From Pisaster brevispinus (lineage: Eukaryota; Echinodermata; Asteroidea; Forcipulatida; Asteriidae), in assembly GCA_023634235.1 (NCBI GenBank), contig JAMKCF010000016.1, forward strand, positions 5,751,140 through 5,815,139: DNA of 64,000 nucleotides, in the 5' to 3' direction. Below, in pieces: positions 8,528 through 34,136 of the stretch. The position numbers were made by a program, and so were the translations under genes. The notes below the pieces were generated by a model that saw nothing but the letters and a program-made list of their open reading frames with translations, was not told the DNA's origin and ran no database searches. Numbering within the stretch: position 1 is the stretch's first letter; every line of letters begins with the position of its first letter.

Positions 8528-9536
8528 TCTATCCTGACTTGTCTGGAGCATGGCAGGCGTATCTCAAATGAAATTGATGATCTCTCAGTATTGGTAACAA
8601 AAGACATTCCTCCTGATCAGTTACATTCATTAATGGAGAAATTGATTGAGGAGCAGAAACAGCTTGTAAACCTCCAACAACATATGGCTACAATTGTAAA
8701 ACAAAGAGCAACTGACAGTCAACTGGATCCGTATACATCAGAATTACATCTTCTTTTGAGTAAGATTCACTTGGTGTCATTGAAGCTAAATCTGCAGAGG
8801 ATGAAATCTGTTGATGAAGCTCAAGAGAAAACAGACACCAAGGTATCAGAGAAACAACATCATGACAAAATGGAAAAGGCTCATTCTACACTTCAGACAG
8901 CATTGATTATGATTGGAAAATCAGTGAAAAGTGAATATAATTTTAGATCTTTGCCTTTGCTAGCTTATGATACACAGTGGTACGGGACAGAAAGTGTTTA
9001 CTACTGCCAACAAATGCTAGTTGATGATTTGCAAGCGCTAGTTCCACAAACCATACTGGTAAAGGAGCCTGTATATCACAAGCAGTACATGGAGAATCTC
9101 AATGTGCTCATTAATACCCAGCAGCAATTGGTTCAAATTGTCACAGATCTGCAAAAGTGGAAAAAAAGCAGCAAGCTGGGAAAGGAGTCCTTTCAGCAAG
9201 ATGACCTACCAGGTGGAGAGATTGGCAAACAACAACTAAATGAACTGGAACTGATAACAGAACAGACTGATTTGATAAAAGATTTTCTCCACTGGATACA
9301 ATTACACGAGAACCACTATTCTCATGAGGCCTTTTTTGTGATATGTTCTTTACAAATGGTGAATAGTGGTCATGATAGGAGTGTTATGAGAACATGGAAT
9401 GATGTCATAGAGAGCCATTTCTATGATATGTCCATGGTGTATGGCAATAAAGGAGAATGTGTTCTCAATGAACACATGATCATGCGAAGTCAAAGGAGAT
9501 TCTTGGATACAGTTGAAGTGTGGAATAGAAGACAAA
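8528..9536 (+). CDS. Helical exon copy A1 of the ZU5-UPA gene family
   Basis: An internal exon of 1009 bp, bounded by TTTATTTGTAG at the acceptor and AAA|GTAAGAAC at the donor (phase 0 in, phase 1 out). It encodes about 336 residues starting SILTCLEHGRRISNEIDD and is fully open. The protein is predicted mostly alpha-helical and Gln/Lys/Glu-rich (MEKLIEEQKQLVNLQQHM; KIHLVSLKLNLQRMKSVDEA; VYYCQQMLVDDLQALVPQ). I recognise no named domain. The middle is nearly identical to copies B1 and C1; the last 80 or so residues differ. The apparent stop downstream (9577) is only read-through into the intron. It may be a 5' cassette of the downstream gene or part of a separate duplicated gene. A coiled-coil scaffold role is inference. 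Confidence 0.75.
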
Positions 9537-9649
9537 GTAAGAACAAACTTATTACCAATGGTTTGTTATTTCAGTGAAGGATCAAACCATAAACATTTAA
9601 CAATTCAAATCAATAGATATAAAATTTACATTCGGGATAAAGAATAGTT

Positions 9650-9890
9650 TTTAGAGTTTCACCCATACACTTTTGTGTGTTAAGCATACTTTCCCTGTGT
9701 CCTGTGAAAAAATCCTAGGGATTTGCCATTCTAGACCAACAAGATTGTCCCTAAGACACCTGCTCTAGAATTTCAAAGTTCATGGGTTCAATTCCCACCC
9801 GAGTGATATGCCTGTGGATTTTCTTTTTGTCAGAAATCCGGGAAAGTGGTGTAGGAGTGTATACAATGCTTAACACAGTCATGACAGTGT
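9650..9890 (+). mobile_element. Old SINE-derived segment after exon A1
   Basis: It contains a tRNA-like box B (GGGTTCAATTCCC near 9784) followed by GTGATATGCCTGTGGATTTT, as in the SINE at 7694-8063. The same degenerate segment follows B1 (18430-18661) and C1 (33530-33790). It was therefore present before the exon unit was duplicated. Confidence 0.6.
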
Positions 9891-10090
9891 ATTCACGCAG
9901 TTAGTTCAAATCAAATCTATTATCTGGATAAACCTGTAGATTTTTACTATAGATTTCAATTTTTGAACTTTTGAACTCTGAAAAATTAATTTAGTAATCA
10001 AAAGAAATATCTAAATGTTTTTATTCTACTTTAAGTAGCTTTGGCTAGAGCGGTCACACCTCACCGCCCATTTCTGAAATAGTATCCCTC

Positions 10091-10885
10091 ATGAACCATG
10101 TTCTAACTAAAAACAATTTTTCGTTCATGGGTAAGAATTTCCTACAGGTACATGGCACCACAATGGGTACACGGATGGCACCATCAATGGCCTGCCTATT
10201 CATGAGCCAACTCGAACAGCGCATGTTGGCATCGGCCCTGTGCCGTCCCTGGGTCTGGTGGCGCTATATTGATGACATCTTTTTCATCTGGACCAGTGAT
10301 GAATCTAGCCTCACAGCATTCCTTAATCACATCAATTCTTTCCATAGGACCATCAAATTCACAACCGAATACTCAACCAAGGATACCCACTTTCTGGATT
10401 TCAAGGTTCTAAAGACGGATGATGGTTTGATCACAGATCTCTTTGTTAAACCCACAGATAAACACCAATATCTCCACTCAACCAGCTGTCATCCCCGACA
10501 CTGCAAAACCAGCATAGCCTACAATCAGGCCCTCAGACTCCGTCGAATCTGTTCTCATGATTCTGATTTTATCCACCACTCACTGGAACTTAAGAAACAC
10601 CTTGTCTCTCGGGGTCATAGCTCCCTGGCAGTCCATCGAGCAATCCAGAAAGTCAAGGCTTGTTCCAGGGGGTCAGTACTTTCCAAAAGACCCGTGCAAC
10701 AACAGAGTTCCAAGGAGAAAGTTCCCTTTGTTGTCACTTTCCACCCCTCACTTTCCCCCATTCGTACAATAACCAGTTCTAACCATCATATTCTTCACAC
10801 ATCAGATCGACTTCAAAGTGCTGTACAAGAAGAACCCATAGTTGCCTACAGACGGCCACCCAGTCTCAGGGGTCTCATTGTCTGA
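10091..10885 (+). pseudogene. Penelope-like reverse transcriptase, partial
   Basis: 264 codons covering the catalytic part of the RT: TTMGTRMAPSMACLFM, the YIDD box in WWRYIDDIFFIW, then HFLDFKVLKTDDGLITDLF and KPTDKHQYLHSTSCHP, all typical of the Penelope clade. The enzyme would copy element RNA at a nicked target. The N-terminal RT motifs are absent (5' truncation), and the frame stops at 10885 before the endonuclease, so this copy is inactive. Confidence 0.9.
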
Positions 10886-10926
10886 GCAGAAGTCCCCCCC
10901 CCCTTAATGATAATTTTAACCCCCCT

Positions 10927-11383
10927 TTGCCACAGGGAACTTTCAGGTGTTCCAACACCTCCAAATGCATCGTCTGTAGCATAGAATGGTCTGTAGACAA
11001 CACATCAGAGAATCGAACTCCTTCACCAGCCATACCGGTGGTTACCACCCATAGGTCAAGGGGTCATGTCACCTGCACCACCAATCTAATCTATTTAATA
11101 TCTTGCAAAGTTTGTGGTATTCAATATATAGGTGAAACGAGAACTAACACTCAAGAGACGTTTCTACGGCCACAGATCCACAGTCAACACCCATAAGCTG
11201 GATACACACGTAGGACATCATTTCAATCTTCCTAATCACTCAATTTCTGACATGATTTTACAGGGCATTGAGGCACTAGGAAACCACAGAGAGATTGTTC
11301 GTCTGAGTAGAGAAAAACTATGGATAAGACGTCTCCAGACCATTCAATCCCATGGTCTGAACATCCAAGAAGAAAATGATTAG
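10927..11383 (+). pseudogene. Penelope GIY-YIG endonuclease, frameshifted
   Basis: The frame from 10927 reads TCTTNLIYLISCKVCGIQYI, matching the GIY-YIG core (LIYLIxCxxCxxxYIGET), with a Cys-containing lead-in (FRCSNTSKCIVC). After YIGET the reading moves to the frame at 11132, which continues LTLKRRFYGHRS...HKLDTHVGHHFN as expected for this family. The domain is thus split by a frameshift near 11135-11150. This nuclease nicks the target DNA for Penelope retrotransposition. Confidence 0.85.
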
Positions 11384-11896
11384 TAACTTTTTGTCTTTGC
11401 GTTCTCCTTTTTACCACAGATAAGCCCCCCCAGTTTGCCTCGTTCACCAATAAACGGCTTTTCTCTCCTTCTCCCCATCGTTGATTTTGTCCTTTGTGTT
11501 TCCCATCTCTTGTGGTCAACCAGCCCCTTCCCCCAATCCCCCTCCCTTTTGTTACCCTCCTTTCTGTTCAGCCTCCTGCTTTCTCTGTGTTTTTGCCTCT
11601 CCATCATCTTTTTCCACTTGACTACTTTTGTTACATCAGTAATGTATAACATGTACCTGTTTATGTTTGTAGTCTTGTCATTTAGCCTTCGAGAAAGACT
11701 CTGCTAGGGTCGAAACGTCAGGCCACTAACTATTTTTTTGCATTAAGTAAAAATTTATGGTTTTTAAATGGTGTAAAGAAATGTGAGGATGACATTGATT
11801 TTTTCAAAGCTGGTCATTAAAAGTTTGTTAATGTACCTGGTTTAAGACTAGAATAGAAATTATGAAAGGACTGATTTATGTTTTTATATTTTATAG

Positions 11897-11967
11897 CTTT
11901 TAAGGGAAGGAAACATATGATACTTTCTGCTCAATACCGATCGATGGAAGATGACCCAATTACTGAG
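11897..11967 (+). CDS. Exon A2, partner of helical exon A1
   Basis: Acceptor TTTTATAG and donor GAG|GTGAGAC; phase 1 in, phase 0 out, 71 bp. Joined to A1 it reads on in frame with GRKHMILSAQYRSMEDDPIT, matching exon C2 (ERKHMIFSAGYQSMQDDPTE). Preservation of frame and splice sites in both copies supports a real exon. Together A1+A2 form a phase 0-0 cassette. Confidence 0.7.
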
Positions 11968-12039
11968 GTGAGACACTCTATCTGATTCAATATTTATTTT
12001 AGTCAATGGCTGATGATGCCACTTTATAATACATTGTAA

Positions 12040-12095
12040 AAGAGGGGGGGGGTGTTGGGGTTCGGGGACTACTGTGTAGCATGGGGGGGGGGGGT
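12040..12095. repeat. G-rich tract
   Basis: Runs of 8 to 12 G with short spacers (GGGGGGGG, TGTTGGGGTTCGGGG, then GGGGGGGGGGGG) directly precede the 1.7-kb tandem duplication. Such a tract could form a G-quadruplex. Confidence 0.6.
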
Positions 12096-13790
12096 CAAAG
12101 TGGCCATAAAATTACTTGAAATGACTGAAGTTTAATGGCACACATATTTTCACTCTGCTGTGGATTGATTTTTTATTTGTAACCATCAGTGGCCTAACCT
12201 GCACAATTGATCTTAAAAAGATTGTGCAGGCAGTAACAATTACAGAAAGGTACATTAGAACCAGCAAATGCAGCCATTTATACTAAAATGTATAACATAA
12301 TCCACATGTGTCTTGCATAATTCTTAGCAAGTCATCTGCCTTAAAAATACTACTACTCATTGCGTCTATTAATTTCGGATAATTAAACTCCTGCTCACTA
12401 TCTGACGACAATACTAAGGGCCTCATCTTTTACTATCAACAAAGACAGTAGACTCAGTTAAATGGGATATTAATGGCACAGCAGCATTGGACAATGGGGA
12501 TATGAAACATAAACATCACTTACACAATTTTTATGCAGATATACACACTCCCCCATTGTCCAACAGAGCCATTGCCATTCATACATCAATTTGTTGCTAT
12601 CAATGTGACGAGAACTTTCCTTTGTCCCTCTAACTTAATAATCTCCATAGACTAAGCGCACGCAGTAACGTGAGGACACAAAAATACAAAGGATTCCACT
12701 GTGAGAACAGCATTGTCCATTTTGTGTTCCTTTGTTCTACTGTCCCCTCTCTTCTGATATTACCATAACATCTGTCCATAGCAATGTTAACATTAACTTA
12801 TACGCGACTGTGCATGTACCGTGTACTGCAACACAACATAGCCTACAACGCTTCCTCAGTGGAGAGAGAATAACTTTAGAAAAAAATGTTTTAACAAGTA
12901 ACGGTAAAAAATATACAATAAACAATAACTTTGCTGTTTAAGTGTCAGTCTACCTGTTCAATATCAATTATTCATAAATATCCCAGACAGTTTTGCTATT
13001 CCTATTGGTGGAGAGCATGTCACGTAGGGTGTTACCCTGCGCTGCAGTGTGCTACAGTCCCACGCTGCGCAACATGGTACTTTCGTCGACTGTACCGTTT
13101 ACAAATTACGTGCAAAACTGATTTTGGCTGCTCACAAGCTCTTCCAACTCTTCTAACATGGTATCAATAGACTTACACAGGTTCACTGAATCGAAAGAAC
13201 CCACAAAAGGCCAAAAAAAAAAAAAAAAATCAATGTGTGCATCATGCACACTCAGTCGCTACAAAAAGAAAATAATGTTACTCAAATCCAACTTTGTTTT
13301 ACATTTGACTGCACTGCTTACCAGTCTTTTGAGAAACAAGGTATCTTATTTACTTGGCCTACCCTGAAACCACAGCTTCACCACCTTACAGTAAACAGCT
13401 GGGGTCTGCATGATGTCTGCAATAGCAAAGCCAGTGACAGAATGATTGGTTGTTTGTGGTAACAGAGATCTGAGATCAAGATCTTAGACCTTATAGAGTG
13501 TATCAAATGTCAACGTATTCTCTAAGGGGCTTCGAAGTTAAAGGTGACTGTAGGTCGATGACTCACCCCAAGCTAATTCTGTCGGTAATAGACTTATCCG
13601 GCTATGTTCCATTAGGGCACTTGCGAAATTTCGCGATTTTTGAGTGTACCGTTAATGAGTAAACACATTTGTTTACAACGGTACAGTCATGGAGTGTACG
13701 ATGCCACGACGAAGTATTTTAAACGGCTGATAAAGACCAGCTGGAGCTGTTTAAGACCGACTGGCTTCGCGTGGTGGGTGCGCAAGCAAA
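12096..13790. repeat. 1.7-kb tandem duplication, unit 1
   Basis: Starts AAAGTGGCCATAAAATTAC and ends GTGGGTGCGCAAGC. It is almost identical to 13791-15482, with only scattered substitutions and a few small indels. No supported gene lies inside; open frames occur in both copies simply because they are duplicates. The part from about 12940 onward retains a trace of the intron that follows exon C2 (GTGTCAGTCTACCTGTT). Confidence 0.9.
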
Positions 13791-15482
13791 GTGGCCATAA
13801 AATTACTTGAAATGACTGAAGTTTAATGGCACACATATTTTCACTCTGCTGTGGATTGAATTTTTATTTGTTACCATCAGTGGCCTAACCTGCACAATTG
13901 ATCTTAAAAAGATTGTGCAGGCGGGGGGATAACAATTACAGAAAGGTACATTAGAACCAGCAAATGCAGCCATTTATACTAAAATGTATAACATAATCCA
14001 CATGTGTCTTGCATAATTCTTAGCAAGTCATCTGCCTTAAAAATACTACTACTCATTGCGTCTATTAATTTCGGATAATTAAACTCCTGCTCACTATCTG
14101 ACGACAATACTAAGGGCCTCATCTTTTACTATCAACAAAGACAGTAGACTCAGTTAAATGGGATATTAATGGCACAGCAGCATTGGACAATGGGGATATG
14201 AAACATAAACATCACTTACACAATTTTTATGCAGATATACACACTCCCCCATTGTCCAACAGAGCCATTGCCATTCATACATCAATTTGTTGCTATCAAT
14301 GTGACGAGAACTTTCCTTTGTCCCTCTAACTTAATAATCTCCATAGACTAAGCGCACGCAGTAACGTGAGGACACAAAAATACAAAGGATTCCACTGTGA
14401 GAACAGCATTGTCCATTTTGTGTTCCTTTGTTCTACTGTCCCCTCTCTTCTGATATTACCATAACATCTGTCCATAGCAATGTTAACATTAACTTATACG
14501 CGACTGTGCATGTACCGTGTACTGCAACACAACATAGCCTACAACGCTTCCTCAGTTGAGAGAGAATAACTTTAGAAAAAAATGTTTTAACAAGTAACGG
14601 TAAAAAATATACAATAAACAATAACTTTGCTGTTTAAGTGTCAGTCTACCTGTTCAATATCAATTATTCATAAATATCCCAGACAGTTTCGCTATTCCTA
14701 TTGGTGGAGAGCATGTCACGTAGGGTGTTACCCTACGCTGCAGTGTGCTACAGTCCCACGCTGCGCAACATGGTACTTTCGTCGACTGTACCGTTTACAA
14801 ATTACGTGCAAAACTGATTTTGGCTGCTCACAAGCTCTTCCAACTCTTCTCACATGGTATCAATAGACTTACACAGGTTCACTGAATCGAAAGAACCCAC
14901 AAAAGGCCAAAAAAAAAAAAAAAATCAATGTGTGCATCATGCACACTCGGTCGCTACAAAAAGAAAATAATGTTACTCAAATCCAACTTTGTTTTACATT
15001 TGACTGCACTGCTTACCAGTCTTTTGAGAAACAAGGTATCTTATTTACTTGGCCTACCCTGAAACCACAGCTTCACCACCTTACAGTAAACAGCTGGGGT
15101 CTGCATGATGTCTGCAATAGCAAAGCCAGTGACAGAATGATTGGTTGTTTGTGGTAACAGAGATCTGAGATCAAGATCTTAGACCTTATAGAGTGTATCA
15201 AATGTCAACGTATTCTCTAAGGGGCTCGAAGTTAAAGGTGACTGTAGGTCGATGACTCACCCCAAGCTAATTCTGTCGGTAATAGACTTATCCGGCTATG
15301 TTCCATTAGGGAACTTGCGAAATTTCGCGATTTTTGAGTGTACCGTTAATGAGTAAACACAATTTGTTTACAACGGTACAGTCATGGAGTGTACGATGCC
15401 ACGACGAAGTATTTTAAACGGCTGATAAAGACCAGCTGGAGCTGTTTAAGACCGACTGGCTTCGCGTGGTGGGTGCGCAAGC
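13791..15482. repeat. 1.7-kb tandem duplication, unit 2
   Basis: Second copy, about 1695 bp from the first, nearly identical, which suggests a recent event. The most visible differences are an added GGGGG tract near 13922 and length changes in the A-run near 14905. Beyond GTGGGTGCGCAAG the sequence runs into a different, smaller tandem repeat. Confidence 0.9.
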
Positions 15483-15812
15483 TCATGTAATTACGCGGAA
15501 CGCAATATAGCTATTAGTACCAGCGCGTAATCTATTTTTACAAGCGCGCACAAACAACCCAACGCGCACCATAACAGAATTTTTAAAACGTTTTTGAAAA
15601 TGTACAAACTTTGAAAATTCGCTAAGAAGCAGATTGGGCGCGCAAGCTCATGTACGCCAATTTAGTTACGCAGAACACAATTAGCTAATAGTACCAGTGC
15701 GTAATCTATTTTGACACGAGGGTACACACAACCCAACGCGCACCAAACATAACTTTTAAAAAGGTTTTTGAAAATGTACAAACTTCGAAAATTCGCTGCG
15801 AAGCAGATTGTC
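15475..15812. repeat. ~170-bp tandem repeat, two diverged copies
   Basis: The block GCGCAAGCTCATGTA...GTACCAGCGCGTAATCTATT...GAAAATGTACAAACTTTG is followed about 170 bp later by a diverged copy. It is CpG-rich compared with its surroundings. Confidence 0.75.
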
Positions 15813-15866
15813 ACAGATTGTCTATAACATTTTTTTTGCTTTTTAACAAAAGGGCATTTATGAATG

Positions 15867-16022
15867 GGAATAAACGAGTAGTGACTCGTTCTTAAACGGC
15901 CGTTTGAAACCTTGCAGGGTCGTGGCCGTGCGATAAAGGCCCGCTTGGGCCTTTTTCGCACGGCCACGACCCTGCCGGTTTTAAACGGCCGTTTAAGAAC
16001 TCGTCGCCACTCTTTTATTGCC
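15867..16022. mobile_element. GC-rich hairpin (foldback MITE-like)
   Basis: A near-perfect inverted repeat of about 65 bp per arm. The arms carry CTTAAACGGCCGTTTGAAAC and TTTTAAACGGCCGTTTAAG, then CAGGGTCGTGGCCGTGCG and CGCACGGCCACGACCCTG; the loop is near GGCCCGCTTGGGCC. The outer ends ATAAACGAGTAGTGAC and GTCGCCACTCTTTTAT are also complementary. It sits in AT-rich intron DNA that is homologous to the region after exon C2, so it is an insertion. No coding capacity. Confidence 0.8.
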
Positions 16023-16025
16023 TTA

Positions 16026-16180
16026 TTTACTGCTGACAATAATCCCATCAGGGTGGAAGAGAAAAAATGGAAGATTCTAAGTACTATCTTGTTAACGAAT
16101 GACCATCCATAATATATATTTTGTGTGATATGTAAAATGTACCTTTGTTTCTTTAAATGACAAGCTACATGTTTTAATAC
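16026..16180 (+). other. Intron segment homologous to the region after exon C2
   Basis: GAAAAAATGGAAGATTC, GACCATCCA, TATATTTTGTGTG and TTAAATGACAAGCTAC recur in the same order at about 34250-34385. This shows that the A and C duplication units extended well past their second exon. Confidence 0.65.
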
Positions 16181-16195
16181 ATTTTTATTATAATT

Positions 16196-16400
16196 TAGCT
16201 ATTAAGTTCCCGTCTACAGGCATCATCAAGCAAGCCCATCGCAAGCTTATCCTTGTCCAGTTCCCGCTTTTGCAAACTAAACCTCTTTGGCATGACTTGG
16301 GCAGTACGACAACAGAGTCTAGCATTCTCCTGAAGATGATCAGAGTATACTGATCGAAACATTGAGTTGTCAGACTACCGGTTCTTTTGAGAACCTCACT
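16196..16400 (+). mobile_element. Retroelement 3' fragment with hammerhead-like motif
   Basis: A short open stretch ends in ...KPLWHDLGSTTTESS, followed by CTCCTGAAGATGATCAG, loop AGTATA, CTGATCGAAAC. The latter has the layout of a hammerhead core: CTGANGA, hairpin, GAAAC. A sister copy lies upstream of exon C1 at 31507-31560. The element family is not identified. Confidence 0.45.
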
Positions 16401-17302
16401 CATATGAATTTGTCATGTAAACTTTCTGTTGAATACATTCGCTGGTTTGTGTGCGCCTTCGTTACGTGTACAAATTACCTGGAAAACACAAGTTTGGTGA
16501 ATAAATGCAATCATATCTGTGGAACCCTTTATCGTACAAACTAGTCCAAAATGGTGAAATAATCCTGAATATCTACTCCTTCATGTCATATTTATTTTAC
16601 ATTCAGAAAACATTTTGCCACATCATTTTGAGGGTTTTTACGTCCAGTCTTGGTCAATTTTGTATGGAGAAATTCCTAAAGTCTACCTGAATTAGCCGCA
16701 TGAGGGCTCTTATGTTAACTTATTTCAGCAACCCGAAGGCCGATTGCATAGTCCAAAACAGATTTGGGAAGTGTACATCCTAACCAACAAACTGCTCTAA
16801 TTTTTATTTTTTAGTTGAAATTCAGTCCAATGAAAAGTTATTTCATAGCTTCAAAACAGCCCTTGCTAAAAGTCCGTTCCAAAACTTCCGCAGTGTCATG
16901 TAGTTCATGAATTTGTGAGATGATGTAGTTTGATACCTAATGACTTAATGATCCTGTAATGTATTTTACATGGCTAAGTTAAGTTATTAGCTACATGTAC
17001 ATTGTTGCATAAGCCCTAAAAGAGCTTGACAAGATAATGGTTTACTTGTCTTTCACTAAACAATTCCCCACTTTGAAAGCAGCTTTAACCAATCTATAAG
17101 AAACACTTAAGTTGGCCTTGATCCCTCAGCTATATGGATTAATAGCTTCACGAAACAAGACTTATTACAGTTGTCTGCCCTGTTTTAAATTAGATAGTTT
17201 TCCAACCTTGCATTCTCTTTGCATTTGTCCTTCAAACCACCTCTTAAATTATGCTTCCTTCACCTTTTCACTCATTTCAAAACTGTTCTGATTTATTTGC
17301 AG
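16401..17302 (+). other. Intron upstream of exon B1
   Basis: No gene seen up to the exon. From about 16890 the sequence is homologous to the introns before A1 and C1 (GTAGTTTGATACCTAATGAC; ATAAGAAACACTTAAG; CAGCTATATGGATTAATAGC), ending in the polypyrimidine/acceptor TTTATTTGCAG. Conservation is moderate, so B is more diverged than A is from C. Confidence 0.6.
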
Positions 17303-18311
17303 TCTCTTCAGAAGCATTTGAGGCATATCTCAAATGGAATAGATGGTCTCTCATCACTGGTATTAAAAGAGATTCTTCCTGGTCCGTTACATTCATTGAT
17401 GGAGAAATTGATTGAGGAGCAGAAACAGCTTGGAAACCTCCACCAAGAAATGGCTACAATTGTAAAACAAAGAGCAACTGACAGTCAACTGGACCAACAG
17501 ACATCAAGAGACTTGTCAGAATTAGATGTTCTTTTGAGTAAGATTCACTTGGTGTCATTGAAGCTAAATCTGCAAAGGATGAAATCTGTTGATGAAGCTC
17601 AAGTGAAACAACATCATGACAAAATGAGTAAGGCCCATTCTACACTACAGGAAACATTGAACAATCTTGGAATAAAGCTGAAAGGAAGTTATGGTTATAA
17701 ATCTTCACATGTCGGAAAGGATGACACACAGTGGTACAGGACAGAAAGGGTATACTACTGCCAACAAATGCTAGTTGATGATTTGCAAGCGTTAGTTCCA
17801 CAAACCATACTGGTAAAGGAGCCTGTATATCACAAGCAGTACATGGAGAATCTTGATGTGCTCATTAAGACCCAGCAGCAATCGGTTCAAAACCTCACAG
17901 ATCTGCAAAAGCAGAAAAAGGGCAGCAAGCTGGAGAAGGAGTCCTCTAAGCAAGACTACCTACCTGCAGGGGAGGTTGGCAAACAACAACTAAATGAACT
18001 GGAACTGGTAACAGAACAGACTGATTTGATAAAAGATTGTCTGCACTGGGTACAATTTCATACAGACTTGCTAGAGTACCACATTTGCCATTTCATCTTT
18101 GTGGTGATATGTTCTGTACATACTCTGAATTGTATTCATCTCAGGATTTCCCATGGTATTGATCACTGGACAAATGTCATGGAGAGCATCTTGGATGTTA
18201 TTGACTTGACGATGTATGGCGAAAAAGAAACATTTGTTTACAGTGAAAAAAAGATCATGCACAGTCAATGCAAATTCTTGGATAAAGTTGCAGAGTGGAA
18301 TAAAAGACAAA
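17303..18311 (+). CDS. Helical exon copy B1 of the ZU5-UPA gene family
   Basis: 1009 bp between TTTATTTGCAG and AAA|GTAAGAAC; phase 0 in, phase 1 out, about 336 fully open residues. It starts SLQKHLRHISNGIDGLSS and has the same helical, Gln/Lys-rich plan as A1 and C1. The core VYYCQQMLVDDLQALVPQTI is identical to the other copies, while the last 85 or so residues are strongly diverged (HICHFIFVVICSVHTLNC; TMYGEKETFVYSEKKIMHSQ). The reading frame extends upstream into the intron but homology starts at the acceptor. No partner exon like A2/C2 is found; a DIRS/LINE composite occupies that place. Function unknown; a coiled-coil scaffold is inference. Confidence 0.7.
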
Positions 18312-18429
18312 GTAAGAACAAACTTATTAGAAGGGTTTCTTTTTTTCAGTGAAGGATCACACCATAAACATTTAACAACTTAGTTCAATAGATACTAAAT
18401 TTACATTAGGGATAAACAATAATTTAAGT

Positions 18430-18661
18430 TTTTCACCCATACACCTATGTGTGTGAAGCATACTGTCCCCGAGTCCTGTGAAAAAACCTAGGAATTTTAG
18501 AGCAGATGTCTTATCACTAGACCAAAGAGATTATCCCTAAGACACCTGCTCTTGAACTACAAAGGTCACTGGATTCAAATCCCACTCCAGCTTTTCATTG
18601 AACTTCGGGAAGATGAAGAGGATACAGTGCTCATTGGTACAACAAAAACAATAATGTAGTT
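18430..18661 (+). mobile_element. Old SINE-derived segment after exon B1
   Basis: It contains a tRNA-like AAAGGTCACTGGATTCAAAT, as after C1, and ends near AATAATGTAGTT, where an unrelated DIRS fragment begins. This is the B-copy counterpart of 9650-9890 and 33530-33790. Confidence 0.55.
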
Positions 18662-21310: not shown

Positions 21311-21840
21311 GTGTATTTTAATCAAGTTTTCATGATTACCATCCACATGACGAAAGTTGTTACAGGATGGCCAGTGCCCAATCAAAACAGGAATACAAGG
21401 AGACATACCGTTGTCGAACAGACTTGAATTTCAGCATAAGAATTTGCTTCCGGGTAGGTCTAGTGAAAGTCATACATGTAGCATCTAATACCTCAACGTG
21501 CAGAACAAAATTCATCACAAAAAGCATGAAAATAGTTTGCAGGCTGCATGAAGTCGAAATACAACACATCAATGTATGAATGTTCAAAAAGACAGTAGCA
21601 GTTGAGATGATGATGGATGGCGCACAGAAAATGTGATTAAAACAGATTTAAAAAAACAAACATCAGAGAGAAAAATAAAAGTGGACTTCCATCTTGAACA
21701 GCGCCCTCGCAGTGCATGTACTGTACGTACTGTATTGAGTACTGCACGTACTGTATTGAGTACTGCACAGCTACATGTGCGAATACGTTTGGCGTTGCTC
21801 GCTATTTCATTGTATATTGCACAACAAAATAATTATATTC
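21311..21840. other. Intergenic or intronic stretch without gene
   Basis: No supported coding sequence. A short tandem repeat with GTACTGTATTGA and GTACTGCACG units lies at about 21718-21770. Confidence 0.5.
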
Positions 21841-22640: not shown

Positions 22641-22792
22641 TCGTCACCTTTTTGAACCTCACATCTCATGTATACCTTGTTTTTGTGTTGTCACAAAAAG
22701 TGAATGTCTAAGTTCTTCTTCTTCTTCTTATTTTTGTGATGGCACAAAAACTCAATGTCTAATTATACTTGTGTGTCTTTTTTTGTACACAG

Positions 22793-22857
22793 AAGGAAAA
22801 CCACAGAAAGAAAAAGGAGCAAGAAAGACCGAAAAGGAGGAAGGAGAAATATATAAG
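22793..22857 (+). CDS. Candidate Lys/Glu-rich mini-exon (first copy)
   Basis: Acceptor TTTTTTTGTACACAG, then EGKPQKEKGARKTEKEEGEI, then AAG|GTTTGC. Phase 1 in, phase 0 out, 22 codons. The acceptor and the EGKPQ start are almost the same as in 31369-31424. The donor is weak in both. It follows exon B1, whose donor is also phase 1, so B1-to-this splicing would stay in frame. It could equally be a decayed duplicate. Confidence 0.45.
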
Positions 22858-25075: not shown

Positions 25076-25285
25076 CTAAAGGTAATTTTTTAGTAGGGCA
25101 CAAGGGGGGGGGGTTACCATTTTTTCTAGGGGGGCACTGCTGGAAAAAGCAATTATAGATCCCATTTGCACTTTAAAAAAACTTGATCTTGATATACCTA
25201 ATGGCAGGTTCCAAATGGGAAGGGGGGCCACCTGGGGGGGGGGGAATGACATTAGTGCCCCCACCCCCACCCCCATTAGTTACGC
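25076..25285. mobile_element. Short non-autonomous repeat ending GTTACGCCACTG
   Basis: Starts near GCGTTCTAAAGG, has G runs and C runs (GGGGGGGCACTGC; CCCCCACCCCC) and ends TTAGTTACGCCACTGG. Another member with the same terminal motif and C-run style lies at 40603-40780. Type unknown. Confidence 0.5.
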
Positions 25286-25304
25286 CACTGGAAGTCTTGT
25301 ACAG

Positions 25305-25365
25305 AAGGTTCAGGGAGAAGGAAGAAGAGGTCGGAAAAAAAAGAAAACAGTACAATAACAATAGG
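25305..25365 (+). pseudogene. Possible degenerate copy of the Lys-rich mini-exon
   Basis: GTCTTGTACAG|AAGG resembles the acceptor of the mini-exons at 22793 and 31369, followed by a Lys/Arg-rich reading (EGSGRRKKRSEKKRKQ). Its length (61 bp) would not keep the phase of the other two, so I treat it as decayed or chance. Confidence 0.25.
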
Positions 25366-25466
25366 GTTGGTCTGTTCACCGAACACCTTATAATGACAAG
25401 AGGTGTTTGAGGTAGTTGATAGAGAAGTGATGAAACGTAACACTATTTTCTCTTTTGTTCAACCAG

Positions 25467-25533
25467 TTCACAATGACTGAGGTTCTAAAGGGGATGACTG
25501 GGACAAAGAAAGGAAAACGTGACAAAAGCAAAG
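25467..25533 (+). CDS. Likely first coding exon of the ZU5-UPA gene
   Basis: Polypyrimidine tract and acceptor (TTTTGTTCAACCAG), an ATG at 25473-25475, then MTEVLKGMTGTKKGKRDKSK and a good donor (AAAG|GTTAGT), ending in phase 1. This matches the phase-1 acceptor of the mini-exon at 31369. Since a splice acceptor precedes the ATG, an upstream non-coding exon is expected. The peptide is basic and low in information, so the call depends on splice sites and phase. Confidence 0.5.
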
Positions 25534-26080
25534 GTTAGTTGCTATGGAGATTGGAAACCCATACAAGGATAGTCCTCAAGATTCTGTAGACATTCATGAA
25601 GTGACAAAACTTTGTCTTCAAAAAGTGTACATCCCCATAGGTAAAAAAAATTACACATAAATAATATTATGATCTTGCTTTTTTCTCAATCTTTTGAGCC
25701 TAATTTAAAACAAAACTGACAAAATATCTTGCTTTATGCTGCATAAAATAAACAAATCTGGGTTTTTTTATCGATTGCCAGTTGTTACCATATCATTCTG
25801 TTAAAAGCTAAAACTGGTTCATATTTTAAATTACCTTTGGTTAGATACAAATGGCCTATGTTGGAAGCAAATTGCAGAAATGTTGGAGTCATTGTTAGAT
25901 TGAATGTTACTATCAGGAAATCTACCTCCATGCTATCAGGGCACAATGTCATCAAGCTGTTGAAGCTAAACAATCCAGGACAGTAAATCAGGAAATATTA
26001 TTCCCCCTTTTTAATATTGATGTGCATTTTAGAGTTCAGGTTTTACAGAAAGAAAAAAAACCTACAGGTACAGGTAGGAA
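25534..26080. other. Intron stretch without recognisable feature
   Basis: I see no gene, repeat or RNA signature here beyond short chance ORFs. Confidence 0.4.
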
Positions 26081-26089
26081 GTTCCAAGG

Positions 26090-26460
26090 TGCAGCAGTAC
26101 AAGGGGAAAGCAAGTAGAATATCTCACTTTAGAACACACACTGTAATACGGATTAGGGACGAATTCAAAATCAAACAAGCGGTAACTCGGGGGCAATTTA
26201 AGAATCCCCCGAGGTAATACGGGGTAACTCAGCCTTGCATAGAACAATAGAGTCATGAATATCCGTCTGCACACGCTGGGTCAACTTGGTCGTGGATGGG
26301 CGACCGCGGATACAAAGAGCAATTGAACAAAAGGCCAGATTTGCATGAGGGACTATATAAACAAGGGATTATCGGATTAGTTACAGCTGCCTGGGTGCTC
26401 CAATAAATGTTCTGCTGATCGATTAACAAATTATGATTATGAATGATAAGCCAAAATATT
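26090..26460 (+). mobile_element. LTR-like fragment with TATA box and polyadenylation signal
   Basis: Contains GAATTCAAAATCAAACAAGC, then GCGGTAACTCGGGG, a TATA-like ACTATATAAACAAGGG near 26352 and AATAAA near 26403. This is the order of an LTR promoter, start region and poly(A) signal. A related GAATTCAAAATTAAACAGTC with the same GGTAACTCGGGG lies in reverse orientation at about 27445-27482. No coding part is attached. Confidence 0.35.
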
Positions 26461-27217
26461 GTTATTTTAAATGTCTCGAATCGTTCTTGTCTACCAAATT
26501 GTTCTTTAGTTCATTTTTAGAGCGGTCAAAATCGGCCACTGAACAGCAAGTTTACCTATTAAAACGATACCCAACAACATTTTATTGAAGGTCGTCGTGT
26601 TCATGTGTTCATGACCATCGTTGCGTCGTTAAAGAGACGGTCCATACACCATCTGCTTCCTCCAAACTGAATATACCACTATAATTAATAAACATACATT
26701 GTACATGTATTACTTTGGATATTTTGAATCCTGAATTCACAGGGCTGAAGACGGACGAAAACACTTTGTCGTTTCTGTTACTGTTTATAAGTACTTAATT
26801 TAGTTTACGTCTCATTTGTTTTCTTCAAAAATTTTAAGGTTTAGATTTTCAACCAAATGAAGAGATACCACAACCATGATGGACTGCTGATGAAGCAACG
26901 TATATAATTCAACTTGGAGCTGCAGCAGGTCAAGGTTTACCTACAACCTTATCTGGGGTCACTTGCTATGAAAACAAAACAAAACAACCAAACAAACATA
27001 AGCATGAATTTTGGCTCATCCTGGCTCGTTTTTCTTCATTGAAGATAATGTTAACCTGAACATCTCATCAATTTTCATTATTTGCGGGGAAGAAATACAT
27101 AACTTCATACCTTTTTTGAAATATAAGTTTCTCTATAATTTCTCAGTGGGCAAGTTTTGGCCTCCTTGAGGTATTCAATAGTTCTAAAGAAACCAATAGA
27201 ACGCAAACTCCACTTAT
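26461..27217. other. Non-coding stretch
   Basis: No supported gene. A stretch from 26840 to 26930 looks exon-like (AG before GTTTAGATTTTCAACC) but has an in-frame stop and no homologue in the window. Confidence 0.4.
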
Positions 27218-27268
27218 CTATTGTTGAACAATAGATATTGTTCAACAATATCTATTGTTGAACAATAG
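27218..27268. repeat. Three tandem 17-bp palindromes
   Basis: CTATTGTTGAACAATAG, then ATATTGTTCAACAATAT, then CTATTGTTGAACAATAG, back to back. The whole 51 bp is itself a near-palindrome able to form a cruciform. Confidence 0.85.
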
Positions 27269-27278
27269 CAATTACGGA

Positions 27279-27728
27279 TTAACCAAGCCTCTGCCAAACC
27301 GCAGCAAGGCTGGCGGCGATATCAAAGAAGGAAACTTGGCTCTCTGTGGCTCCAAGAGTGTTGTTCATTGACCTGTAGATAATGAGCTCATTATGGCCCG
27401 ACTTCCTTTTACCCCGTAAAACCCCGGGGGGAAATGAAGATTTACCCCGAGTTACCGACTGTTTAATTTTGAATTCCCCCCTTAAGGTACTGACGAGCTG
27501 ACATAAACTGCCAAGATGCTGAGATGCTCTTTTAGCTTTATAAAAGATGTATTTATCCAAGCTGAGGCTGGAAGTAATATCCAATCCATGGAGCCAGATA
27601 CTAGGAAGTTCCCATAATTGTTTGGAGTCCAAAATAAAAAACCCACAAAAAACCCAATCAGGTCGAGTTACAGCTCTCAAGCTGGATAAAGACAACAGAT
27701 GAGTTTTGTTTTGATTGAAGGTGACCAT
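27279..27728 (-). pseudogene. LINE reverse transcriptase C-terminal fragment
   Basis: On the minus strand, VTFNQNKTHLLSLSSL corresponds to the region after the RT catalytic box (FNxxKTxxL), and LPSIWLHGLDITSSLSLDKY with KRASQHLGSLCQ to the thumb-like part. The reading then leaves LINE similarity and enters an unrelated GGTAACTCGGGG repeat (27400-27490). Probably from the same degraded LINE as 29497-30470. Confidence 0.6.
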
Positions 27729-28188
27729 CCAGTCCTTATCCCAGGGAACAATATTTGTAAGTTTGTGGTTGTGAGTAGCACTAACTTGATCAATAGTGAA
27801 AAGTTGACAAAAAACCTTAGTGGGCAGTTACATTTTTTGTACAAGTGTACAGTGTGCTGAGATAATTGTATGCCGTGCACTTAAAGCAATAAATGATTAG
27901 ATTAGATATTAAAGACAAAGTCCCAAACATGAGAAAAATATTGGTGCTAGTTGCAATGCAGTCATTTGTACATATATGTACAAGTATTTACAAAAGAGGC
28001 ATTACCAACAATTACTTGTTTGCATTGTCGGAGGTAGGATGTGAAGACCTGCCATGCTTAGCCCTATCAGCTTTGTAGTTGCTGTTTTCCCTTTACCTCT
28101 TCTTGAAAAAACTCTGCCCCTTGAACCTCCGGCAAAGCTGGTGTAAGGTGTAAACGCTTATTCTCTTTAAAACCGAAGTCCTGATTGG

Positions 28189-28722
28189 TTAAAAGGTCAC
28201 TTTAAAGGCCAACTTGTTCACCAATTCGGTTTCCTCAATGTCCTTCATCAATGACGCCCCAAATAGTTCATTAAGACTGGGTGGGATGTTAATAACCTCA
28301 AACTTCTTGTCAACAACATCGTCAAAAGCATGCTGACGAGATTGGGCTAGGCTCTGACTTGCTGAACTGAGAAGAATTATGCCAGAAGATAAAGCATCTG
28401 AAATATTCTTGGGATCAGCGATGGCGCCTAAAAGTCTCTGAAGGGGGAGAGACATGATTATGAGACACATGAACTTCTCATTCACAACTACTGATATGGA
28501 ATTGGCTTGCGCTGGAGACCTTCTTAATACCGGAAGGTAGTTCCTGGCCAGTGAAAATGTGTCGTGTTCAAAAGGAACAGAAGAACCAACCCCTTCTTTC
28601 AAGTTGTCAGACGAGAATCTTTGAGTTCTAAGTTCTTCCCACCATTTCAAAACATTTTCTGAAATGGGGTTGCTAGAATCCTTACGATGAGGATTACAGG
28701 ACAGAGGTTTCTTGTTGACCAT
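28189..28722 (-). pseudogene. DIRS-like Gag (ORF1) fragment
   Basis: 177 codons on the minus strand with LGAIADPKNISDALSSGI and ASQSLAQSRQHAFDDVVDKK. It clearly resembles the Gag-like piece at 19267-19545 (ISDPATLDEIDKSF; ASQVVALNRQRAFDELLDKK). No RT follows downstream on the same strand, so this is a fragment. Confidence 0.6.
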
Positions 28723-28799
28723 GGCTGCTCATAGGTGAAGCTTGAATAAAGAGAAACCGTGGAGGAGGGATACCTCAAGTGTTTTAAAAACATGGAATT

Positions 28800-29310
28800 G
28801 ATGCAGATGCAAAGTTGTGTCCTTGAAAGTTCCAGGAAACTTGTCCAGGGGCCGGCGTGGCCACTGCTGGAGGTTGCATCATAGACATACCTGGTGGCTG
28901 CTGCTGCTCAGGACTGATCAAAATCAGTCGTGCTAGCCCGGGCAGGTATACTGGGGTGGTTTTTGCACAGACATCAACGGTGTACTCATAGCTGAGCTGG
29001 AACCACTGAGGTAGGGCTGTCCTGCAGCAGTAGAACAGCCCGAATTAGGTTTTGGGTACAACACCACGCCACCTGAAAAACTTTCTGTCTGCCATATAAA
29101 CGAACAGAAGTTTGGCACACTCATGTTGTTGGTGTAATCCAAGATTTGGATTGACCCAACATGCCAGGCCCAGAATCCTCATCTATCTCATTCGCTGCAA
29201 AGGCTAGAATGTCGACAGGGGCCTGCTCTTCCTTGTACAGCAGTGGTTGAGACATCACTGGGGGAGCTAAATAACTTACAGGAAACAAAAATGGTAAAAC
29301 TTTGGGCATG
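28800..29310 (-). pseudogene. Probable N-terminal part of the same DIRS-like ORF1
   Basis: Minus-strand pieces AFAANEIDEDSGPGMLGQSK and VVLYPKPNSGCSTAAGQPYL lie just upstream (in element sense) of the 28189-28722 fragment and in the same orientation. They have the acidic, low-complexity look of a DIRS ORF1 N-terminus. Frame changes separate them. The assignment is by position more than by motif. Confidence 0.4.
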
Positions 29311-29496
29311 TTACAAGTATGTAAAAGCCACGAATGGGGAGGTTACGATCAGACTGCTCACAAATAACAAAAGACTACAAGTCCAAGCATTCAACGAGTA
29401 TATGAGGCAACTGGGGAGAAGTTTGCATACTAATGAGGTTGTTTCATTAAGGGTGGAATCGGAGTGCAACACAAGAACAATTTACAGAGTGAGTCT

Positions 29497-30470
29497 CTAC
29501 GGAATTGGTGAAATATAATTAGTGTGAGACTGACAGTCAGGGAGTGGATGACCCTGACCACAGAGGGTAGAGTTTGCAGCAAAGGGTTTGGTAAAGATGT
29601 TTACTTCATCAAAAAGCGAGTTCTTCAGGGTCATGAAAACAAATTTAGGATGCTGCTGGCATTCCTCCAAAATTCTAGGCCTTAAAGATATTGAAATGAT
29701 ATAGAGTATTGGATGGTCTTTGCATAAAGTAAGTTTTAGCATTCTTCAAAACTAGTCTGCTTTTTTTACTTGGAAGGCAAAATTGATGATGAAGCTGTCT
29801 TGAACTATTCTTGTGATACAGGTGGAAATAGTGTTAGAGGTAGGAGCAAGCTTTGAGAATGTGGTTTAACCTAGATCTGAGAAGGAATGAAAATATACAC
29901 ATTGACACAGCCCTGTTCACTAACTTCCTCTGCTGCCCTTGAGGAATCAGGGTAAAATACTGAGTTCCATGGGAAATCACCAAAAAAGGAGCATAAATCA
30001 TCCCAGTCGGCCTTACCATTATGCAAAGTTGTCTGATGTTTGGAATACCTGAACCTCAGTGATGAAATGGTTGGAATTTCCCAGTGGTGCTACAGTTTTG
30101 GCACAATCTCCAGAGTTTGTGCACAAAAGCAGGTCCAGAAGATGTCACATGTTGCCAATGGTGTGATCAGGGATTCTCGTTGGGACAGATATATTTTTGC
30201 TGAGGTTGTGAGAAGCTTCAAAGTTGTATGCACAGAGGGCAGGGATGCATGTAGCGAGAGTGAACCAACTACTTCTCTGTGATGGCTGCTGGCATCACCA
30301 AAGACCGTTATGTCGAAGGATGGGTGATGATCAAGAGCTTCATCAATGCTGGTGAAAGTTGTACCAAACATTTTGCAGTTTCTGATTGTAATATCCTCTA
30401 TGCAAGTTGTTATTATACTATGCTTCAACATTATATTTGTTATTGATGTTATATGCTTCAATGCACATGT
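29497..30470 (-). pseudogene. Degraded LINE: EEP endonuclease end and RT start
   Basis: Minus strand. FDITVFGDASSHHREVVGSL corresponds to the catalytic GDFNxHH segment of a LINE endonuclease, with the Phe-Asn changed to Ala-Ser. Further on, FAANSTLCGQGHPLPDCQSH is typical of the linker before the RT palm. Frameshifts and stops are frequent. The middle of the RT is missing and a DIRS fragment occupies 28189-29310, suggesting nested insertion. Confidence 0.6.
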
Positions 30471-31141
30471 GAGAATCTAACATAAAAGCATACACATGAC
30501 CAGTTAGAATGTTGTCCGTGCCATTTTATTCATTGGTCCTAAAGTGCTTGTCAGATCATTACACTGACGACGGAGAGCAACAGAGAAAGTACAAATAGAC
30601 AGTGGAATGATGGAGTGCTAGACAAAAACGTCATGTTTACTGTGTCATGTCCTGGAAAGATGCTAAACGGCCAAGTGGTAAGGAGGCCTTGAGAAAGAAC
30701 AGAAAAAGTCCTGAAAAGAGTACAGGATCTTTTGTTATTAGGTGGCCATGACCTGCAACAAGGTTTTGACCTCATCATGCAGAGTGGTCAGTATCATGGT
30801 GACTGATCTTAGAGCTACCTGAGCAAAGATGTAAGAATAAACTCAGCCACTCCCTTATAGTGAAAATGGGTTAGCACAATAAACAAGGTAGTAGGATTTG
30901 GTTAGTAGACTGAGGCTAATTTTGAGATGAATAGCAATTCTCCTTTCCAATATTAGCACATCCCAATCCAATTAACCCCAATGCTCATCATACAACATTG
31001 TATTGCAAAACCCAAGTCACATACCTTTTATAAGTATCCTGAATCAATCCTTGCGTATATTGCATTTTTCAGGGAATACTAATTACCGATTGTTGCTCTT
31101 TGTTGTTGTTAGAAGTGTTTTATTTTATTAAATAAATGTTA
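30471..31141. other. Non-coding stretch
   Basis: No supported gene; open frames are short. It may hold more LINE remnant on the minus strand, but no motif is clear. Confidence 0.4.
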
Positions 31142-31253
31142 TTAAGAATCAGTGTTGGAGGTCTCGAGACCGGTCTCGAGACCATTTTTTACTGGTCTTG
31201 GTCTTGGTCTTGGTCTCGGGTGTACTGGTCTTGACTACAACACTGGTAAGAAT
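31142..31253. mobile_element. 96-bp hAT-like MITE with 8-bp TSD
   Basis: Terminal inverted repeats CAGTGTTG (31150) and CAACACTG (ending 31245) flank GGTCTCGAGACC twice in tandem and a GGTCTT repeat. The flanks TTAAGAAT (31142-31149) and GTAAGAAT (31246-31253) are an 8-bp target duplication with one mismatch. CAGTGTTG ends and 8-bp TSDs are characteristic of hAT elements. Confidence 0.75.
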
Positions 31254-31368
31254 AGACACAAGTCATTAGATAATACTACAGGTTACATCCTCGGATTACC
31301 TAATTTTCTTGCTATTAATGATACACAATTGTACTTTATTAATGTGTGTGTGTCTTTTTTGTACACAG

Positions 31369-31424
31369 AAGGAAAACCACAGAGTGCAAGAATTACAAAA
31401 GAGCAGGAAGAAGAAAAATTAAAG
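31369..31424 (+). CDS. Lys/Glu-rich mini-exon of the ZU5-UPA gene
   Basis: Acceptor TTTTTTGTACACAG, peptide EGKPQSARITKEQEEEKLK, donor AAAG|GTTCAT (weak). Phase 1 in and phase 0 out exactly bridge the start exon (25467-25533, phase 1) and the helical exon C1 (phase 0). A close relative sits at 22793-22857. The weak donor is the main doubt. Confidence 0.5.
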
Positions 31425-31506
31425 GTTCATTAATAAACAGTTATCCTTTTCAAGCTTATCCTATCCCACCTTTGCACACTTAACCTCTTAGATAGTAATT
31501 AAGCAT

Positions 31507-31565
31507 TACAGCATTCTCCTGAAGAAGGTCAGATTATACTGATTGAAACATTGAGTTGTCAAAGT
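31507..31565 (+). ncRNA. Hammerhead-like motif in a repeat fragment
   Basis: CTCCTGAAGAAGGTCAG, loop ATTATA, CTGATTGAAACATTG gives the order CTGANGA, hairpin, GAAAC. It aligns with 16322-16375. One extra base between the GA and the stem is atypical, so catalytic ability is doubtful. Confidence 0.3.
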
Positions 31566-32371
31566 ACCGTTTTTTTTCTTTCTTTGGAATATTGCTTAAT
31601 GCAGGAGTCCCACAGGGGATAAGATTGAGACCCTTTAGTTTTCTTGCAATGATCAATGCTGTAAAACCCTCTGATCAAATGCACACTTTCAAATATGTAC
31701 ACACCAGTTTGTAAATTTTGACAATCTAATCAACACAAATTCTATTCTGACAATCTAATCAATTCTTAGTTTTTTAATTTGCAATTAATAATCTAGTTGA
31801 ATGCTATCCAAATGAACCAAATCCTGCCAAATGTGGATTGTGGAAATCGTGAACTTCAAAATGTTGCAAGAATTATAAGTTTCGTGTAGTTCAGGAAGTT
31901 GTGTAGGGATGTAGTTTGATAGTAGTAGTAGGTAGTCCGGGAGCGACCAAGTGTTATCGTTGGGGATTAGTTATGATCTGCAAAATGTTGTAAGGATTAT
32001 AAACCTGTGTTATGTAGTTCATGAAATTGTGAAGTAATGTTATTTGATACCTGATGACTTAAGACGACATTTGTTTACATGGCGTTAAGTTATAACTTTG
32101 AAAGCAGCTCTGTTTGGTGGAAAATAAATCGTTATTGGTCAACCATTAACCAATCTATAAGAAACACTTAAGATGGCCTTGATCCCCCAGCTATGTATAA
32201 ATAGCTTCACGAACCAAGACTTCTTATACAGTTGACTCACTGTATGTTTAAACTCAGATAGTTTTCCTAACCTTGCATTTCTTTTGCATTTTTCCCTTCA
32301 AACCACCTCTTGCATTAAGCTTCATCCTAAACCTTTTCACTCATTTCAAAACTGTTCTGATTTATTTGTAG
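31566..32371 (+). other. Intron upstream of exon C1, homologous to copies A and B
   Basis: No gene. From about 31960 the sequence is nearly the same as 8150-8527 upstream of A1 (for example ACATTTGTTTACATGGCGTT and CAGCTATGTATAAATAGC). The A and C units are therefore the youngest pair. Confidence 0.7.
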
Positions 32372-33413
32372 TCTATCCTGACTTGTCTGGAGCATGGCAG
32401 CCTTGTCTCACATGCAATTGATGATCTCTCATTACTGGTAACAAAAGAGATTCCTCCTGATCAGTTACATTCATTGATGGAGAAATTGTTGGAGGAGCAG
32501 AAACAGCTTGTAAACCTCCACCAAGAAATGGCTACAAGTGTTAAACAAAGAGCAACTGACAGTCAACTGGATCTATCTACATCAGAAGACTTGTCAGAAT
32601 TAGATGTTCTTATGAGTAAGATTCACTTGGTGTCATTGAAGCTGAATCTGCAAAGGATGAAATCTGTTGATAAAGCTCAAGTGAAAACAGACACTAAAGT
32701 GTCAGAGAAACAACATCATGACATTGAAAAGGCTCATTCTACACTTCAGAAAGCATTGAACAAGCTTGGAAAAGCAATGAAAAGTGGATTTGATGTTAGA
32801 TCTTCTTTGAAAAGAAGTTATGGTTATAAATCTTCACATGTCAGAAAGGATGACACACAGTGGTACAGGACAGAAAGGGTATACTACTGCCAACAAATGC
32901 TAGTTGATGATTTGCAAGCGTTAGTTCCACAAACCATACTGGTAAAGGAGCCTGTATATCACAAGCAGTACATGGAGAATCTCAATGTGCTCATTAAGAC
33001 CCAGCAGCAATTGGTTCAAAACCTCACAGATCTGCAAAAGCAGAAAAAAGGCAGCAAGCTGGAGAAGGAGTCCTCTAAGCAAGACTACCTACCTGCAGGG
33101 GAGGTTGGCAAACAACAACTAAATGAACTGGAACTGATAACAGAACAGACTGAACTGATAAGAAGATGTCTCTACTGGGTACAATTACACCAGGAAGGCA
33201 TTTCTCATGAGGCCTTTTTTATGATATGTTCTTTACATATGGCGAATATTTTTCTAGTTAGGAGTGTTATGGAAACATGGATCGATGTCATGAAGAGACA
33301 TGTCAGCGATATGTCCATGGTGTATGGCGGAAATGGAGAACTTGTTTTCAATGAACAAATCATCATGAACAGTCAAAGGAGATTCTTAGATAAAGTGTGG
33401 AATGAAAGACAAG
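32372..33413 (+). CDS. Helical exon C1 of the ZU5-UPA gene
   Basis: 1042 bp between TTTATTTGTAG and CAAG|GTAAGAAC; phase 0 in, phase 1 out, 347 open codons starting SILTCLEHGSLVSHAIDD. Long amphipathic helices rich in Gln, Lys and Glu (HSLMEKLLEEQKQLVNLHQE; KIHLVSLKLNLQRMKSVDKA; NVLIKTQQQLVQNLTDLQKQ) suggest a coiled-coil bundle. No family recognised. It is the copy closest to the ZU5 exons and is followed in phase by C2, so it is the most likely N-terminal region of the ZU5-UPA protein. Relative to A1 it has an extra ~15-residue segment (SLKRSYGYKSSHVRK) that B1 shares in part. Confidence 0.8.
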
Positions 33414-33529
33414 GTAAGAACAAACTTATTACCAATGGCTTGTTATTGCAGTGAAGGATCAAACCATAAACATTTAACAATTCAAATCAATGGATATAAA
33501 ATTGACATTCGGGATAAAGAATAACTTTA

Positions 33530-33790
33530 GTGTTTCACCCATACACCTATGAGTGTTAAGCATACTTTCCCGGAAAAATCCTAGGAATTTGCCATTCTAG
33601 AGCAGATGTCTTATCACTAGACTAACGAGATTGTCCCTAAGACACCTGCTATAGAATTACAAAGGTCACTGGATTCAAACCCCACCTGAGTAATATGCCT
33701 GTGGATTTTCTTTTCATAGGCCTCTGGGAAAGTGGTGTATGAGTAGTATACAGTGCAAACACACATCGGTCTATGGGTACTACACAAGTA
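33530..33790 (+). mobile_element. Old SINE-derived segment after exon C1
   Basis: Contains GAGCAGATGTCTTATCACTA and AAGGTCACTGGATTCAAACC, then GTAATATGCCTGTGG; the same arrangement follows A1 and B1. It was inherited with the duplicated unit. Confidence 0.6.
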
Positions 33791-34068
33791 ATAATGTAGT
33801 TCAAATCAAGTTTATTATCTGGTTAAACCTGTATATTTTTACTACAGGTTTCATTTTTTTAACACAAGAATTAATTTAGAAATATCTAAAAGAAATATCT
33901 AAAAGTTTGTACTCTAAATTAAGAAAATTGATTTTGAAATGGTGTGAAGAAATGTGATGATGATTATTTTGATTTTTTCATGGCTGGTCTTTTGTTGAAG
34001 TTTGTAACCTGGTTTATGAGTTGAACATAATTTCTGAAAGGCCTGATTTATGTTTTTATATTTTATAG

Positions 34069-34136
34069 CTTCAGAGGAAAGGAAACATATGATATTTTCT
34101 GCTGGATACCAATCAATGCAAGATGACCCAACTGAG
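34069..34136 (+). CDS. Exon C2 of the ZU5-UPA gene
   Basis: 68 bp, acceptor TATTTTATAG, donor GAG|GTGAGA; phase 1 in, phase 0 out. Reads ASEERKHMIFSAGYQSMQDD then PTE. Conserved with A2 at the protein level, including HMI-SA-Y-SM-DDP, which supports real coding function. Confidence 0.75.

Follow-up and report, generated by a model that had tools for sequence, protein, structure and literature searches.

A candidate starfish ZU5-UPA-Death gene with a lineage-restricted, cassette-duplicated helical module at its front

In PIDD, NLRP1, and CARD8, the ZU5-UPA unit acts as a self-cleaving switch, and the part in front of it decides what is sensed. PIDD carries leucine-rich repeats (LRR) and two ZU5 domains, NLRP1 also has NACHT and LRR, and UNC5CL stands beside UNC5B as a ZU5-UPA-Death unit. 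According to excerpts of PMC3210808, the cut in CARD8 falls between Phe-296 and Ser-297, with Phe-296 corresponding to UNC5b Leu-677, and HFS is used by PIDD and Nup98. Excerpts of PMC8195603 describe TRADD-N in marine invertebrates, some of these domains being fused to FIIND or UPA-ZU5, with self-cleavage predicted. Here we analyze a window of 64,000 nucleotides (C16:5751140-5815139 of a 549.7-Mb animal genome) that is best explained, with moderate confidence, as the front part of a long starfish gene for a ZU5-UPA-Death signaling protein with a lineage-restricted, cassette-duplicated helical N-terminal module. If so, it would be a natural case of new front ends, in the form of a young, duplicated, and locally restricted module, being added to an old switch.

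Three copies of the module (exons A1, B1, and C1) lie in the window, and C1 is very probably joined in one gene with ZU5, UPA, and Death-like exons (Table 1). The predicted splicing C1-(C2 or D)-E2-ZU5-U1-U2-F-G-H-I gives a chain of 962 or 956 residues with a single stop, at its end, over a span of 53 kb from C1 to that stop; exon H, like exon I, lies beyond the window end. ZU5, and UPA after it, exceed the respective Pfam cut-offs of 21 and 27 bits. The product of exon G found nothing convincing in Pfam or PDB, its likeness to a death effector domain (DED) being an impression only. A model that ended U2 at the stop at 46887 was replaced once F, G, and the Death exons were found. An earlier note on this DNA had placed C1 upstream of a ZU5 exon, as observed here, and had proposed that a ZU5-UPA protein carries an intact, duplicated, and uncharacterized helical module at its N-terminus, a proposal that the present analysis supports. 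Its guess at death-fold signaling is supported too, because a Death-like exon lies 21 kb past the window and the A. amurensis relative P0003 passes the Pfam Death cut-off (29.1 bits), the exon I region being 66% identical to P0003. For the cytoskeletal branch of the same guess, the single favorable point is that ZU5, UPA, and a Death domain similar to the one here also occur in ankyrins. Its observation is therefore confirmed and its interpretation in part, and to these are added a predicted full ZU5-UPA-Death-like gene and a fusion that appears conserved in Asterias.

The proteins closest to the window come from the starfish Asterias, from which the window probably derives from a starfish of another genus. 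P0003 (A. amurensis, 1063 aa) combines the module with ZU5, UPA, and Death, all three called by Pfam, within a single chain that matches the C1-C2-E2-ZU5-UPA splice model at 62% identity over 97% of its length. The chain of P0004 (A. rubens LOC117301407) opens within the tail of the module, followed by ZU5-UPA-Death; over 36 columns, this start shares 72% identity with the P0002 tail, and 0/1000 shuffles reach its score against the module tail of the window. P0001 (A. rubens LOC117301753) contains two serial modules and lacks ZU5, and P0005 (A. amurensis) shows ZU5-UPA-Death without the module, as expected if the cassette is optional. P0003, P0004, and P0001, which are named only "uncharacterized" by their source, share with this gene the module and/or the ZU5-UPA-Death chain at 49-62% identity, differing in the number of modules (one in P0003, two in P0001, and only the tail in the annotated chain of P0004).

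Among described systems, PIDD1 resembles this gene in its ZU5-UPA-Death order and HF/S motif, and PIDD (8.4e-06) and CRADD (8.9e-09) are among the best Death profile matches. Unlike PIDD1, this gene encodes a single ZU5 and an unrelated helical module, and it adds a further exon product, assigned to no domain, that sits between UPA and Death; Pfam detects no LRR in P0003 or the gene model, and one ZU5 stretch only. NLRP1 and CARD8 (FIIND) share the ZU5-UPA unit and the cleavage Phe at the same position as aligned via UNC5B, but they end in CARD where this gene ends Death-like, and they read SFS instead of HFT. No CARD match appeared in P0003, P0004, or P0005, all three of which end in Death. 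UNC5B has the ZU5-UPA-Death unit and is the best solved match (1e-17), but it reads QLG at the motif, and no Ig or TSP ectodomain like its own was found here. TRADD-N is also a lineage-specific domain joined to a ZU5/UPA unit in marine invertebrates, but it is RRM-like alpha+beta (excerpts of PMC8195603), whereas a weak model shows the module as all-helical, and no Pfam family matches it above threshold.

The UNC5B match to ZU5-UPA, the Death match of ankyrin-3 (3.1e-08), and the long helices of the module model would also suit a non-cleaving scaffold or guidance protein of the ankyrin or UNC5 sort, in which the module binds a cytoskeletal or membrane partner. We regard this as doubtful, considering that HF(S/T) occupies the cleavage position while UNC5B reads QLG there, and that neither P0003 nor the gene model, in which the first exon is missing, contains Ig, TSP, or ankyrin repeats.

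Self-cleavage at HF/(S or T) between ZU5 and UPA is predicted from the alignments and has, in our judgment, an even chance of occurring. The Phe of HF(S/T) aligns with a Leu of UNC5B chain 3g5b, at position 137, which we take to be UNC5B residue 677, assuming a protein length of 945. The site reads HFS in P0003 and P0004, and HFT in P0005 and in this gene; in the own genome, 6/6 ZU5 loci with an alignment covering the site show HFT, this gene included. The division of close relatives into HFS and HFT opens the chemistry of the cut to testing; in general, Thr is among the nucleophiles named for reactions of this class (excerpts of PMC3210808). Once cut, the N-terminal fragment (module and ZU5) may stay bound and keep UPA-Death silent, a mechanism to which we give less than an even chance. 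Disturbance or loss of the module side would then free UPA-Death, which might assemble via a Death domain of the CRADD, PIDD, or ankyrin kind and lead to caspase or NF-kB type signaling. In this reading, the variable last third of the module might serve as the surface that contacts a partner or invader protein.

Regarding the module exons, the earlier description of three open tandem copies with the same splice sites, phase, and flanking homology holds for A1, B1, and C1, which contain 336, 336, and 347 whole codons, respectively, plus one base. The acceptor TTTGYAG/TCT and the donor CAAR/GTAAGAAC are common to them. Identity, as determined by blastn with flanks included, is 84.8% for A and C (8128-10035 / 31966-33923), 79.5% for A and B (8309-9798 / 17088-18585), and 81.1% for B and C (17085-18585 / 32146-33685). 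Position 34136, where the stretch described in the earlier note ends, is the end of the small second exon C2. Its label "Gln/Lys-rich" is right as to the presence of an enrichment and too strong as to its degree, which is mild (Q about 9%, K 7 to 9.5%). The module, which matched no family recognized in the earlier note, falls below every Pfam, NCBIfam, and PDB threshold.

A whole-genome search with the module, whose counts are lower bounds for repeats, gave three matches in 549.7 Mb, all inside the window. A transposon-encoded domain in hundreds of copies had been named earlier as what might explain the module away; a high-copy transposon origin is rejected because there are only three genome matches, unless many copies of strong divergence escaped the search. 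Although the window is full of mobile elements, the module occupies spliced exons with conserved phases and is fused to ZU5-UPA-Death in another species, so that a transposon-encoded domain has a negligible probability. Protein searches, limited in sequence length such that remote relatives may be missed, detected it in 2/1772 candidates, at least 4 of 7999, and, with a profile, at least 3 of 7997. Among the matches listed, it occurs only in Asterias and in two environmental proteins, and so far it appears to be restricted to the lineage of Asterias-like starfish. The literature searched on ZU5, FIIND, UNC5CL, and death domains in echinoderms and invertebrates held no paper on the module, a negative limited to those subjects. 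Its structural model, built with six sequences, is all-helical, with long helices (predicted local distance difference test, pLDDT, 61.1; predicted template modeling score, pTM, 0.65). Structure searches with this weak model returned nothing significant; Smac- and ClyA-type bundles topped the lists at levels common for helical models, and no fold is assigned. A module acting on membranes as an alpha-helical domain of ClyA-like fold, freed by the ZU5 cut, is very improbable in our view.

The open frames of A1, B1, and C1 are more than chance would give. When 131, 135, or 176 random substitutions were placed in C1, its frame survived in 2/2000, 3/2000, and 0/2000 trials, respectively. Exon indels are multiples of three in 17/17 cases vs 7/31 in the flanks, both counts being sums of three pairwise comparisons that are not independent. 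The ratio of nonsynonymous to synonymous substitution rates (dN/dS), a comparison that the earlier note had proposed, is 0.91 (A-B), 0.89 (A-C), and 0.94 (B-C), each with a bootstrap range that includes 1. The module exons are thus preserved in frame, with an amino-acid constraint that is weak on average and uneven along the module. In all six full-length modules (a seventh, partial row was left out), 75/120 residues are identical at C1 positions 81-100 and 161-260, and 8/87 at positions 261-347.

The copies A, B, and C are patchworks, most simply read as the result of exchange among them. A equals C at 386/397 sites of the upstream intron, far above the exon (872/1000), and in mid-exon B and C agree, A being the odd copy. 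The order of odd-copy sites forms 126 runs vs a shuffled mean of 188, and 88 vs 127 within the exon, with 0/10000 shuffles as low in both cases. Exon-vs-intron divergence is therefore not to be read as selection.

A1-A2 and C1-C2, each running from phase 0 to phase 0, constitute frame-neutral cassettes as judged from their predicted splice sites; such a cassette could therefore be inserted, duplicated, or skipped without harm to the ZU5-UPA-Death part, and the cassette phases make this route testable. The reading frame is maintained, with no stop, from A1-A2 into C1, and it is also maintained from B1 into C2 or D. Direct splices C1-E2, A1-C1, and B1-C1 were discarded because they break the frame and bring in 25 or 26 stops; direct splices of C1, A1, or B1 to ZU5 are in frame and possible. 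A 78% repeat links 34238-34414, downstream of C2, with 16028-16197, upstream of B1, and suggests a tandem unit reaching beyond the partner exon, perhaps with a further small exon.

Considering that (i) dN/dS is about 0.9 in all three pairs, (ii) tblastn found no partner exon for B1, (iii) a reverse-transcriptase-like open reading frame (ORF) separates A1 from A2, and (iv) the two-module P0001 of A. rubens lacks ZU5, it is a real possibility, if short of an even one, that C1 alone belongs to the ZU5 gene and that A1 and B1 are drifting spares, outside the ZU5 transcript or in a separate small module gene like LOC117301753. The in-frame indels, open frames, and intact splice sites speak against such drift, as do the in-frame joins of A1-A2 to C1 and of B1 to C2 or D. 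At the opposite end, an NLRP1/CARD8-like self-cleaving death-fold sensor, its module diversified by cassette duplication and patchwork exchange and its copies A, B, and C used alternatively or serially to present different contact surfaces, is unlikely on present grounds.

Several points weigh against a ZU5-UPA-Death signaling gene with a cassette-duplicated module, the explanation here preferred. Regarding the gene, it was modeled from genomic sequence alone, the relatives used are all predicted proteins, and P0003 is labeled LOW QUALITY. As for its first exon, no convincing match was found to the N-termini of P0003 and P0005 in the window, or to those of P0003, P0001, and P0005 in the 20 kb upstream, and the U2 donor is weak. 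Death exon I reaches 18.1 bits, below the Pfam cut-off of 22.6, and is without some residues present in P0003, and the match to ankyrin death domains is almost as good as that to CRADD. The site here is HFT, and in the excerpts of PMC3210808 cleavage is shown only for Ser sites. Regarding the module, dN/dS values near 0.9 with ranges including 1 also fit relaxed constraint on spare copies, its structural model is weak, and that of full-length P0003 is unusable (pLDDT 40.7).

Table 1. Coordinates of the module, partner, and domain exons, followed by the mobile and repetitive elements around them (window numbering).
Feature	Position	Strand	Phase	Remarks
Exon A1, module copy A	8528-9536	+	0 to 1	whole-genome match 2.6e-151
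Exon A2	11897-11967	+	1 to 0	blastn 81.3% to C2 region; reverse-transcriptase-like ORF between A1 and A2
Exon B1, module copy B	17303-18311	+	0 to 1	matched in whole-genome search; no partner exon found
Exon C1, module copy C	32372-33413	+	0 to 1	matched in whole-genome search
Exon C2, one possible C1 partner	34069-34136	+	1 to 0	resembles P0004 (A. rubens) after module tail
Candidate exon D, alternative to C2	37676-37725	+	1 to 0	open only in this phase; 7/17 residues identical to P0003 linker
Linker exon E2	39092-39191	+	0 to 1	66.7% identity over 30 residues to P0003 and P0004
ZU5 exon	39828-40453	+	1 to 0	Pfam ZU5 66.8 bits; HFT motif near end
UPA exon U1	46127-46270	+	0 to 0	Pfam UPA 44 bits together with U2
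UPA exon U2	46676-46852	+	0 to 0	weak donor GTGGGT
Linker exon F	49173-49238	+	0 to 0	tblastn to P0003, E 0.024
Exon G start (helical, before Death)	63940-64000	+		267 more bases past window (L016); 75% identical to P0003 over 89 residues
Death-like exon I	85429-85704			outside window; ends in stop
Gag-like ORF with zinc knuckle	398-1480	-		Pfam PNMA 106.4 bits
Reverse-transcriptase-like ORF between A1 and A2	10049-10882	+		RVT_1 27.1 bits, below cut-off
DIRS-like retroelement in ZU5-UPA intron	41620-45363	-		long overlapping ORFs; RVT_1 94.2 bits
50-bp satellite in F-G intron	51083-63827	+		about 254 copies, 12.7 kb

The surroundings of the exons contain several mobile and repetitive elements (Table 1). 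The DIRS-like element is associated with an inverted repeat pair (40845-40984 / 45331-45478, 92.6%) and presumably includes a recombinase, for which no Pfam match was obtained. Between the A and B units, 12096-15482 is a 1.7-kb direct tandem duplication of 99% identity. Elsewhere in the genome, the ZU5, UPA, and Death exons of a paralogous gene, which reads HFT and lacks any match to the module, are located about 460 kb away on the minus strand (L004, L006, and L010, C16:6.23-6.25 Mb). Two further ZU5 loci with HFT (L011 and L012, C20:3.26-3.29 Mb) display long repetitive N-terminal open frames, that is, different front ends.

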